This document shows positions 27,798-52,342 of a stretch of DNA of 64,000 nt, piece after piece. Position numbers and translations under genes: made by a program. The stretch lies in assembly GCA_016932575.1 (NCBI GenBank), contig JAFGCO010000018.1, forward strand, positions 1 through 64,000. The letters run 5' to 3'. The notes under the pieces were generated by a model, which saw only the letters and a list, made by a program, of their open reading frames with translations, was not told where the DNA came from and ran no database searches. The DNA is from a bacterium. GTDB taxonomy: Bacteria; Zhuqueibacterota; QNDG01; JAFGCO01. Position 1 is the first letter of the stretch, and each line of letters starts with the position of its first letter.

Positions 27798-28424
27798 TTA
27801 ATCCTTGACCTTAAACCCGACACAGCAATGAAAAGTACGATATTTATCCTGATGTGTTTCACACCAGATCTTCTGAAATCCTGTTTCAGACAGCCTCTGC
27901 CTCATTGAGCCGATGCTGAATAAATGCAATTCTGCCATATGAAATCGATTCCGCAGACAACTGTCTGAAGTGAATGTAATAACAAATTGCCCTTCCGTTT
28001 GCAAAACGCGATATACTTCAGACAATCCTTTTTCAACATCATTCCAGTAAAAAACGGAATTCACGCTGCATACTTTACCATAACTTTTTGAAGGAAAAGG
28101 CAGTTTTTCCACAGGGGCGCGAAGAACCTCCATCCTGTCGGATTGTATCTGTTTCTGGAACCGGCTCTGTAAACGATTGACCATCAATTTTGAAACATCC
28201 ACACCCACAACATACCCATCCGTAACTTCCCGTATCATTTGCTGCAATAAGTATCCTCCGCCAAATCCCACTTCCAATACCCGGTCTTCGGGTCGGAGTC
28301 TAAGTGCACATAGCGTAATATCATTCAATACCTTGTTACGCCGATTCCAGAATCGCGGCAAGACAAATCGCTCAATACATCCGCTCGGAGATTCCAACTG
28401 GTTTTGAATCCATCGTTTAAACAT
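27798..28424 (-). CDS. Class I SAM-dependent methyltransferase
   Basis: A 208-residue soluble protein. Motif I is clear (VLEVGFGGGYLLQQM, about 49-63), followed by the acidic end of the second strand (VVGVDVSKLMV) and the methyltransf_11 motif VLQTEGQFVITFTSD. It is of the UbiE/MenG-like general type. The N-terminal part (FVLPRFWNRRNKVLNDI) is often seen in small methyltransferases acting on lipids or small molecules. The substrate cannot be inferred. It is a single-gene unit, with the octamer-repeat region directly upstream. Confidence 0.87.
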   Translation of the reverse strand: MFKRWIQNQLESPSGCIERFVLPRFWNRRNKVLNDITLCALRLRPEDRVLEVGFGGGYLLQQMIREVTDGYVVGVDVSKLMVNRLQSRFQKQIQSDRMEVLRAPVEKLPFPSKSYGKVCSVNSVFYWNDVEKGLSEVYRVLQTEGQFVITFTSDSCLRNRFHMAELHLFSIGSMRQRLSETGFQKIWCETHQDKYRTFHCCVGFKVKD

Positions 28425-28510: not shown

Positions 28511-28775
28511 GTAAATGGGTAAATGAGTTGATGCCTTGATGCGGACACCCCATACCCCGCCAAATATACATATAGGATTTATTACTCAAGTGAGGGGACG
28601 AAGGGAACACTTCTACTCATATACTCATTTACTCACTCACTCTCAGGTGGCGGGGATGACGAGAACACTTCTACCCATATACACATTTACCCATCTACTC
28701 AAACACTCTATGACTCAAAGACCCAATGACTCTACGACTCTATCACTCATATTCCCCTTATTTCCCCTATATCCC
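28511..28775. repeat. Degenerate 8-nt tandem repeat region (array A)
   Basis: Between the methyltransferase and chemoreceptor genes the DNA has a clear 8-base period. On the plus strand, 28672-28751 is ten consecutive octamers in register: TACCCATA, TACACATT, TACCCATC, TACTCAAA, CACTCTAT, GACTCAAA, GACCCAAT, GACTCTAC, GACTCTAT, CACTCATA. Another block is 28614-28645 (TACTCATA, TACTCATT, TACTCACT, CACTCTCA). A block in the opposite orientation is 28511-28542 (GTAAATGG, GTAAATGA, GTTGATGC, CTTGATGC). A pyrimidine-rich tail (TTCTTATTTCTTG) continues to about 28850. Part of the region is an imperfect direct duplication (28592-28640 and 28648-28695). There is no coding potential. Confidence 0.8.
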
Positions 28776-28847
28776 CACTTATTTCCTTTTCTTATTTCTT
28801 GATTGCTTATTTTTTGTTTCTTGTCCCTTGTCGCTTGATACTTGATC

Positions 28848-30845
28848 TCACTCCACCTTGAACGCATCGGCGGATTTCTGTAATGCCTGCATATGTTCAT
28901 GCACAATGCGAATCTGTTCGCTGGAATGTGAAATGGATTCGGCTACCTGTTGAGCGGCTTCTGATATGTGTTGAATGCTGTCATTGATTAATTGCAGCGA
29001 TTCTACCTGCTGCTGATTTTCAATATGCATCTGAACAGCCGCTTTATCTGTATGGTGCGCCTGATCAGCTAAAAATAAAAACATTTCTGAAATCGCAATA
29101 AATGAATGCCGTTCCTGAACCATGGTTTCTTTCATTTTTTGTAAATCTTTTTTAAATTGATCCATAGATTCGCTGAATGTCTGGATCACAGCCAGTGTCT
29201 GTCGATTGGCATTGGATGTATTCATGCTTAAAGTTTCAATTTCCTTGGCGACGACTGAAAATCCGGCTCCCTGCTCTCCGGCCTTCACAGCTTCAATAGA
29301 AGCATTAATGGCAAGCATTGCAACTCGCTCATTAATATCATCGATGACTTTCACCATATTGATAAGCGCATCGGATTCTTTATGCAGTCTCTGCATATCA
29401 TTATATAAGCTGACGGTCTCTTTGGCCATATTCCCCATACTTTGCATACTTTCACGAACGAGCGCTTTCCCTTTATCAACTACATCCAAAAATTGTTTTG
29501 AGAGCCTCGTCACTTCTTTCACACCAAGCATCACTTCTTCAACATGCTGAACCATCTGACCGGAAGTATTTGCTACCTTACCAATCTTATCTGACATCTC
29601 TTTTCCGCTCTCAGTAATGATCTGATGATCTTCGTGAAGATGATTGATCTTATCAGCAACATCCTTTGTATGATGAATCATTGAAGAAACCAGTTGACGA
29701 ATTTGTCCTAAAAACAGATTGAAATTCTTCGCCGTCTGACCAATTGCATCTTTGGTGAATACTGGCAATTCTTGGGTAAGATCGCTTTTTTCATTGGCAA
29801 TAGTATGCAAACGCGAGGCCAGGGCATCTAAAGGGCGCAATACTTTTAATGTTCTCCATGTGCCGTATGCAATAATTAAAATGCCCGCCAAAAATATCCA
29901 CTGCATGATCGCCCACGTTCTCTGCCGTACAGGTTCATTGACCAATTTTTCCGGAACCATAAAAGCCAGCTGCCACCGAAAATACGGCTGGTTTGATTGA
30001 ATCGTGTGAAAAAACACGATATAATGTGTTCCATTCCAGTGTACAAATTTAAAAGTGTTCTTTTGGTATTGCATCATTTCCCTGGCCAGTTCCCGAAATC
30101 CCTGTGCAGAAAACACATCATCCAGTCTTCTCAATGGACGCATGTAATAAAGGTCGGGATGATATCCGGGAAACACGAAAACATCACCCGATTCATTAAT
30201 CATAAATGCCTGACCTTGCCCGTGATATTTCAGTTCGGCAACCAATTCACCAATGGTCTTTATTTCTATATCAATGCCTCCAATTCCCAGGAAGCGACCC
30301 GATTGCATATAAACAGGCATTTGAAGCGAAGCCGCCATCGTACTGTCTTCATAATCATATCCGCCAAGTTCGCAATACAATCGATTGATACGAACCGCTT
30401 TATGCCACCAGGGTCTGTCTTTGACAAAATATCCATCCTGTTCATAACGGCCTTCTTCATCAAAATACTCCTCCGTATTATCAGTAGCGAAATATACAGA
30501 ATTCAGAGTAGAATCGGATGCCAGCAGTTCCCGGCAAAGAGCCGTGAACCGGTAATAACCCGGATCATTCTGAATGGGAGCCCTAAATCGATTGTAATGG
30601 GAAAACCAGTCCAGGATAAACGGATCTTTAAAAAGAGTTAATGGAATCCGGCCGCGTTCGACCAAAAAACCACGGATTTCTGATGCATCCCACTCCAGGA
30701 GTCTCTGTGCTTCACCTGTCACGGCATCCCGCACAAGATCGCGAATTGTCATAAAAGTAATAAGAGAAAAAAGAGAGAATAAAAGCAGGATAGAACCGAG
30801 ATAAGGGATCAACAACTTTTTCTGAATACGAAAGCGTTTTTGCAT
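28848..30845 (-). CDS. Methyl-accepting chemotaxis protein with dCache-type sensor domain
   Basis: A 665-residue chemoreceptor. The ATG at 30845 has AGGA 8 bases upstream; a TTG six bases earlier is less likely. Transmembrane helix 1 is at about 12-35 (LLIPYLGSILLLFSLFSLI) and helix 2 near 315-335 (WIFLAGILIIAYGT), enclosing a periplasmic dCache-like domain (RPWWHKAVRINRLY). A HAMP linker follows, then the signalling domain with the conserved hairpin tip (MLAINASIEAVKAGEQGAGF). It would bind a small molecule outside and control CheA. No NWETF-type tether for CheR/CheB is visible at the C-terminus. No other che genes are in the window. Confidence 0.93.
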   Translation of the reverse strand: MQKRFRIQKKLLIPYLGSILLLFSLFSLITFMTIRDLVRDAVTGEAQRLLEWDASEIRGFLVERGRIPLTLFKDPFILDWFSHYNRFRAPIQNDPGYYRFTALCRELLASDSTLNSVYFATDNTEEYFDEEGRYEQDGYFVKDRPWWHKAVRINRLYCELGGYDYEDSTMAASLQMPVYMQSGRFLGIGGIDIEIKTIGELVAELKYHGQGQAFMINESGDVFVFPGYHPDLYYMRPLRRLDDVFSAQGFRELAREMMQYQKNTFKFVHWNGTHYIVFFHTIQSNQPYFRWQLAFMVPEKLVNEPVRQRTWAIMQWIFLAGILIIAYGTWRTLKVLRPLDALASRLHTIANEKSDLTQELPVFTKDAIGQTAKNFNLFLGQIRQLVSSMIHHTKDVADKINHLHEDHQIITESGKEMSDKIGKVANTSGQMVQHVEEVMLGVKEVTRLSKQFLDVVDKGKALVRESMQSMGNMAKETVSLYNDMQRLHKESDALINMVKVIDDINERVAMLAINASIEAVKAGEQGAGFSVVAKEIETLSMNTSNANRQTLAVIQTFSESMDQFKKDLQKMKETMVQERHSFIAISEMFLFLADQAHHTDKAAVQMHIENQQQVESLQLINDSIQHISEAAQQVAESISHSSEQIRIVHEHMQALQKSADAFKVE

Positions 30846-30924
30846 AATCAATCCTGAAATTCATTTATGTGAAATTTAACAGGTTTACCCTATTCCATGC
30901 AAGCAGTTTTTAAAAAAATAATAC

Positions 30925-45690: not shown

Positions 45691-45850
45691 ATCTTCCTCG
45701 ATTCTCCTGATTTATGATTCTTGTTTTTTGTTGCTGGCTGCTGGTTTCTCTTCTCAGGCACCTAATTTATTGTTTATTACTTCTTGTTTTTCTTTGATTC
45801 TTGATTCTTTCTCTCTCCGTCTCCCCCATGCTCCGTTTCTGTTTCTGTTA

Positions 45851-45960
45851 TTACCATATTACCCAATTACCCTATTACCATCTTTGTCTTTTTTCTTATT
45901 TCTTGTTTCTTGTTTCTTCTGACCTGATGACTCAACGACCCTAAGACTCTATGACCCTGC
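45851..45960. repeat. Degenerate 8-nt tandem repeat region (array B)
   Basis: Four octamers are in register at 45851-45882 (TTACCATA, TTACCCAA, TTACCCTA, TTACCATC) and five at 45921-45960 (GACCTGAT, GACTCAAC, GACCCTAA, GACTCTAT, GACCCTGC). Between and before them (from about 45715) lie pyrimidine-rich runs with TTCTTATTTCTTG, also found in array A. It is intergenic between Nif3 and rluD, and purine-rich on the transcribed strand. It is the same family as 28511-28775 and 52226-52342. Confidence 0.8.
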
Positions 45961-52225: not shown

Positions 52226-52342
52226 AATGATTCAATAACTCAACAACATTTCCTCTATTTCCCGTATATTCCCTGTACTTATTTCCTTATTCTTGATTCT
52301 TATTTCTTATAATCCAACGACTCTATGACCCAATGACTCTCT
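52226..52342. repeat. Degenerate 8-nt tandem repeat region (array C)
   Basis: Octamers in register occur at 52229-52244 (GATTCAAT, AACTCAAC) and 52319-52342 (GACTCTAT, GACCCAAT, GACTCTCT). Between them are pyrimidine-rich runs (TTCTTGATTCTTATTTCTTA). GACCCAATGACTCT is identical in array A. It is intergenic between mtnP and a lipoprotein gene, in the same orientation relative to transcription as arrays A and B. Confidence 0.75.

Follow-up and report, generated by a model that had tools for sequence, protein, structure and literature searches.

Short-period intergenic repeats in a Zhuqueibacterota genome as probable arms and remains of small PF05635 elements

The window is a stretch of 64,000 nucleotides from a bacterium of the Zhuqueibacterota, and it contains three arrays of short-period repeats. 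The spacer of the first (array A, 28511-28850) lies between two minus-strand genes with Pfam assignments, a class I methyltransferase (27798-28424) and a methyl-accepting chemotaxis protein with dCache, HAMP and MCPsignal domains (28848-30851). The original prediction placed a single array of at least ten in-register octamers at 28511-28775. The octamer run is real and comprises 11 consecutive nAC.C units, but the stretch is not one uniform array and is instead a composite of several element remnants. In order, it consists of a 125-bp element, a half-copy of that element, the octamer run, a TATTCCCC/TTTCCCC block, and TTTCTTG heptamers that extend to about 28850. A PF05635 ORF is absent from array A itself, and an Rfam search of the window gave no match.

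Positions 28511-28610 contain no octamer array, and form most of the dispersed, ORF-less 125-bp element (the miniature, 28511-28633), which is given on the minus strand after the sense of the related PF05635 element. Its inverted ends are built of octamers, with the words GTAAATGG/GTAAATGA at one end and TACTCATA/TTTACTCA at the other. It is recognised by BLAST (86% identity to the family consensus over 124 columns, E 1.7e-35), by its inverted arms (28511-28533 and 28618-28640), and by its modest RNA fold. The fold z against mononucleotide shuffles is -2.3 for the minus strand of the miniature, compared with -6.4 (strong) for the locus L331 and -1.4 (modest) for L339. Folding of the whole of array A as one RNA hairpin is unsupported (z 0.2). 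A second, partial copy of the miniature on the minus strand (28642-28690, 84% over 49 columns) has one end only, and is a direct repeat of 28594-28642 at a distance of 58 nt.

The octamer run nAC.Cnnn (28665-28752, minus strand) passes from the word TACYCATN into GACYCWAN and is purine-rich (NTWGRGTC) on the transcribed minus strand. It is the longest nAC.C run of array A, and a second one of 5 units starts at 28607. The longest strict ACYC run has 8 units, against a maximum of 3 in 100 first-order Markov shuffles of the window, 96 of which have a longest run of 2. The minus-strand TATTCCCC/TTATTTCCCC/TATATCCCC word block (28752-28790) is seen in up to 10 sampled array spacers. The minus-strand heptamer array (28778-28850) has TTTCTTG/ATTCTTG words (sense AAGAATC/AAGAAAC), which are of the same family as the arms of the Mucilaginibacter PF05635 elements L236 and L249.

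Two similar arrays with shared words had been reported at 45851-45960 and 52226-52342, and both are found as described. Like array A, they have minus-strand genes as neighbours, and all their parts are assigned to the minus strand. Array B contains a heptamer part with CTTGATT/TTCTTGT words (45692-45820), CTCCGTTTC and ATTACCCA (octamer) parts (45821-45885), and TTTCTTG heptamers followed by GACYCWAN octamers, 4 of them in register (45887-45960). Its ATTACCATATTACCCAATTACC is a dispersed word block present in up to 8 sampled spacers. Array C (52226-52342) comprises ATAACTCAACAAC, TTTCCTCTATTTCCC, TTCTTGATTCTTATTTCTTA, and GACYCWAN octamers with 3 units in register. The block GGTAATATGGTAATTGGGTAATATGGTAATAAAATGTTGAATGCGTTGTTGAATGAGTC is nearly unchanged across several spacers (window 45849-45885; L038, L041, L223), and its recurrence suggests that composite remnants are copied as units.

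The original prediction depended on further arrays elsewhere in the genome, and these are numerous. Allowing up to 2 mismatches, GACYCWAYGACYCWAYGACYC occurs at 197 places in the 4.41-Mb genome, compared with 1 for the reversed control. In about 0.7 Mb of sampled contigs, a non-random set of the array-bearing contigs and a few long ones with gene calls from a simple hexamer model, periods 7 and 8 exceed other short periods in intergenic DNA. They are found in 22 and 16 intergenic segments, and in 1 and 0 in shuffles. Among 59 relatives, none closer than the same order, the array pattern is absent except for one stray match. The array word is present in unrelated genomes of Mucilaginibacter, Stahlbacteria, Saprospiraceae, Anaerolineales, Armatimonadetes, Aerophobetes and others, and 12 of these array-bearing genomes have no reversed-control match. 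About 15 chance matches are estimated in the collection, so that genomes with a single match mean little. An assembly artefact is disfavoured because the same word occurs in unrelated, separately assembled genomes. Contigs C30 (71574-71692) and C23 (39080-39150) share one 32-bp higher-order octamer array at their ends (L014, L212), and they may be joined there, with the assembly broken at that array.

In Desulfobacterales/Deltaproteobacteria (L064, L119, L128), the array words are the ends of an ORF-less element of 100-190 bp with the outer ends AGACCTCGTTAAGT. An Armatimonadetes genome (G063) has pairs of inverted GACCCAAC arrays 60-150 bp apart, such as C484:32459/32608 and C53:7779/7905. 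AbiEii/HicA-type and minimal nucleotidyltransferase genes lie near arrays in G062 and in an Aerophobetes MAG (L126, L100), and could represent another type of cargo. Where a genome has arrays but no PF05635, the genes near the arrays include those of the nucleotidyltransferase/HicA type and ordinary metabolic genes, with no single family among them.

Across 281 octamer units of 54 arrays, the core GAC-C is fixed, with positions 1, 2, 3 and 5 at least 90% fixed and positions 4, 6 and 8 variable. The arrays were chosen by GAC spacing and the spacers by words, so the conservation of the core is partly ascertained, while the comparison of neighbours should be little affected. Neighbouring units match at 2.67/5 and random pairs at 2.66/5, which upholds the earlier claim that the period is kept while the bases vary, unlike in slippage microsatellites. 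Adjacent units therefore lack a slippage-type likeness. Adenine-specific mutagenesis of the DGR type fits the GACYC word, in which the A positions of the purine strand vary and the others are fixed. It was dropped as an explanation because the words of L228 and L241, judged by eye, vary at C and G.

A clue to the origin of the arrays comes from Mucilaginibacter, where four-helix-bundle genes adjoin them. Full elements encode a PF05635/TIGR02436 protein; PF05635 is Pfam's 23S rRNA IVP family, a four-helix-bundle protein. The genome of the window (G000) has six PF05635 genes, of which five are surrounded by inverted short-period repeats with element-specific words, and one, L224, is not. Two of the five have words of the window, with GACYCWAN at C30:71167 and GTARATGR at C23:35105. 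On the window's own contig, outside the window, a PF05635 gene (C32:98090-98401) has different flanking words, GAGCACAAGAGCATAAG / CACTTGTGCACTTAT.

The bracketing was measured at 61 PF05635 loci in 39 genomes by an arm score, which compares the upstream 200 nt with the reverse complement of the downstream 200 nt. The upstream and downstream arms of the same locus average 19.7, compared with 9.4 for cross-pairs. The score is above the cross-pair 95th percentile in 46/61 loci and above the 99th in 36/61. Complementary ends thus bracket the ORF in 46/61 loci, against 1/30 for control cold-shock (CSD) genes of the same relatives, which were treated identically and show no period. The bracketed IVP loci amount to 22/33 in the CSD-control genomes and 24/28 in the other genomes, and about a quarter of IVP loci, including L224, have no clear arms. 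Lag-7 identity is 0.39/0.42 within 60 nt of the ORF and 0.25 at 300-600 nt. The IVP ORF runs in the same direction as the genes on either side in 40 loci, and against both of them in 5. Its dN/dS in non-saturated pairs is 0.03-0.08, and it is under strong purifying selection. Many genomes of unrelated bacteria show this element architecture. Across genomes, the more similar two proteins are, the more similar are their arms (Mantel r 0.11, p 0.01), in a test that leaves out pairs within Mucilaginibacter and has only 3 pairs in its top bin. The elements examined by flank sit between protein genes, with no insertion in a 23S rRNA helix among them, and they are therefore termed IVS-like and are not classed as rRNA IVSs. 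A search of this genome detected no 23S rRNA gene.

The miniature of array A resembles one of these elements. It matches the C23:35105 IVP element at 81% over 47 nt (E 6e-9), and the ends of that element are similar to its own, with no target duplication identified. The miniature has some characters of a MITE, being short, ORF-less, dispersed and bounded by inverted ends, with about 16 full-length copies as well as partial ones in the sampled DNA. IVP is not a known transposase. The Y1 transposase family (PF01797) has 9 matches in the genome, including C24:143879 and C65:57713.

PF05635-like genes are matched in 60/61 Mucilaginibacter genomes, and the argC-argD spacer of this genus was read in 30 cases. 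Full elements of 420-443 nt are present in 7/30, an ORF-less two-armed form of 143-144 nt in 2/30, a solo 3' arm in 3/30 (spacers of 24-83 nt), and a near-empty spacer of 12 nt in 1/30, a series that is not polarised by a species tree. The remaining spacers contain other sequence, including REP-like palindromes. Unrelated palindromes (GTCATTGCGAGG, GTCATGCTGAACTTGTTTCAGCA) are hosted by the spacers L320, L324, L326, L330, L338 and L341, and the site therefore looks insertion-tolerant. Comparison of 21 full elements from argC-argD, argG and one other site shows that the letter after AAAG is identical in both arms in 20/21, and is T, C or G as a block. Mapped onto the IVP tree, the word takes 3 changes, the fewest possible with four states, and the site takes 6. 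The arm word fits the phylogeny of the protein better than the insertion site does.

The arrays probably represent the terminal repeats (arms) of small elements that carry a PF05635 gene, and what is left of these after decay. From 5' to 3', such an element would consist of purine-rich 7/8-nt repeats, a PF05635 IVP gene of about 115-140 codons, and the same repeats inverted. On read-through transcription, the two arms would anneal to give a long hairpin whose loop contains the ORF. RNase III may trim this hairpin, as reported for 23S rRNA intervening sequences (Coxiella IVS), and trimming would make insertion in operons tolerable. The IVP may bind its own word and serve copying or insertion, and solo arrays would remain once the ORF and one arm are lost; we infer both the transposition mechanism and the RNase III processing. 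The left part of array A is formed by an ORF-less miniature related to an IVP element with window words. Among the points in favour of this reading, one orthologous spacer is found in different species with the full element, with two arms and no ORF, with a solo arm, or nearly empty. The original prediction knew of no described function, which still holds for solo arrays, but a candidate origin is now available in the arms of PF05635/IVP elements.

Several observations stand against the arms reading. Only one arm is present in most arrays of this genome (for example 13:2, 9:0 and 18:1 words per spacer), and in the named genomes an inverted unit of the same word lies within 700 bp for only 30/169 array matches. 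The solo arms of Mucilaginibacter are 3' arms, and those of this genome look like 5' arms. The array-bearing genomes G062, G065 and G068 have no PF05635 match. PF05635 is common anyway, with 52/59 relatives carrying it, so that the joint presence of arrays and PF05635 in a genome carries no information. For the spacers of the window, the available comparison is with relatives from other families.

The arrays also share with STRRs and LSSRs the presence of intergenic tandem units of 5-11 nt in excess of chance. They could be ordinary heptanucleotide or octanucleotide repeats that arose by slippage and then drifted, with IVP genes merely among them. Such repeats are known from scattered bacteria (PMC4679880), and this origin would suit the three array-bearing genomes without PF05635, the nearly monotonous GACCCAAT arrays of Mucilaginibacter, and the 32-bp higher-order duplication at the C30 end, where some tandem duplication does happen. 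The account is nevertheless unlikely, since adjacent units are no more alike than random ones and vary only at set positions. Slippage also does not yield inverted arms with matching words, such as those of IVP genes, and the word switches jointly in both arms.

The orientation of the arrays bears on the remaining explanations. The purine-rich transcribed strand noted for the three arrays of the window is general, being seen in 34/39 clear array-bearing spacers between co-directional genes; the set holds 50 array-bearing spacers, 39 of them co-directional with clear orientation. Where the neighbouring genes converge or diverge, all 10 spacers agree with the local GC skew, and array orientation matches the GC-skew sign on 19/19 array contigs with an absolute 4-fold-site skew >0.02. 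Transcription alone is rejected as a full account, given that the convergent and divergent spacers follow the contig in 10/10 cases, as do three spacers whose genes oppose the contig polarity. At spacer level, C7:98021, C63:166402 and the C30-end/C23-end array depart from the pattern. Of these, the C30-end case is expected under the element model, since it forms the downstream arm of the IVP gene C30:71167. Full-length 125-bp copies have the contig-skew polarity in all clear cases, the exception being one partial copy (C7:98532). The leading-strand polarity of the arrays goes beyond what the element model explains.

The sense-strand bias of the arrays is in line with a role as post-transcriptional sites. 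The in-register units would be bound, in the leaders and spacers of operon mRNAs, by an RNA-binding protein of the S1, Csp or CsrA type or by IVP, and the arrays would be kept for this function. A fixed core, free positions and the lack of likeness between neighbours resemble repeated binding sites, and a role of this kind was proposed for TAACTGA repeats (PMC4679880). This is improbable, as the neighbouring genes (MCP, methyltransferase, NIF3, pseudouridine-synthase, PNP-family) have no common theme and the relatives lack arrays. Polar chromosome-organisation or recombination signals (KOPS- or Chi-like) on the leading strand would agree with the GC skew on all 19 contigs, the 10 convergent and divergent spacers included, and with the G-rich units of that strand, but are the least credible explanation because one orientation is common to several different words, 59 relatives have no arrays beyond one stray match, and the arrays cluster in intergenic spacers and are not evenly spread singletons.

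The PF05635 elements and the arrays share features with several known systems. The 23S rRNA IVS of Coxiella is an element of 428-444 nt with a 28-bp stem, an S23p ORF and RNase III cleavage (PMC4990558). The present elements resemble the IVSs of Coxiella and Leptospira in their same-family ORF, size of about 0.43 kb, inverted ends and sense orientation (PMC4990558). They differ in lying between protein genes and in having ends of degenerate 7/8-nt repeats, and RNase III is assigned to them only by analogy. The TAACTGA repeats of Beggiatoaceae, cyanobacteria and Bacteroidetes are likewise intergenic 7-nt direct repeats with a patchy distribution across phyla, and are mixed with other heptamers in some genomes (PMC4679880). 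In contrast to the present arrays, their words are uniform, and they are described without an IVP gene or an inverted partner (PMC4679880). STRRs of heterocystous cyanobacteria and LSSRs are also short-period intergenic repeats, of which heptanucleotides are reported as the commonest class (PMC4679880). Bracketing of a gene family and paired-arm evolution are not known to have been described for them.

MITEs and REP/RAYT elements likewise include short ORF-less derivatives with inverted ends that are dispersed in spacers. The present elements differ from these in their periodic ends and in their candidate partner gene, PF05635, which is not a known transposase. Avd, an accessory protein of diversity-generating retroelements, is a distant match of IVP proteins (E 4e-7), far below the cut-off of the Avd model. 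Set against KOPS- or Chi-like motifs, which consist of one conserved word skewed to the leading strand throughout the genome, coding DNA included, the arrays show the skew, more than one word and a concentration in spacers.

The PF05635 protein family, rRNA IVSs and bacterial heptamer repeats are each already known. A search outside subscription journals and preprints found no paper that joins IVP/IVS with heptamer repeats, which is therefore weak evidence. A broader and rather doubtful extension is that PF05635 elements could be widespread autonomous bacterial mobile elements, in which a four-helix-bundle protein would recognise its own arm word, word and protein would co-evolve, and both arms would be rewritten together. 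The 23S rRNA IVSs and many unexplained 7/8-nt intergenic repeats would then be special cases and remains of them.

A single phenomenon may underlie both the origin and mobility of 23S rRNA IVSs and the 7/8-nt intergenic repeats scattered patchily among unrelated bacteria. The link between IVP and repeats makes both puzzles testable, as the binding protein to be expected can be predicted from the repeat word. In Mucilaginibacter, which includes cultured species, one orthologous site occurs in the full, ORF-less, solo-arm and near-empty states.
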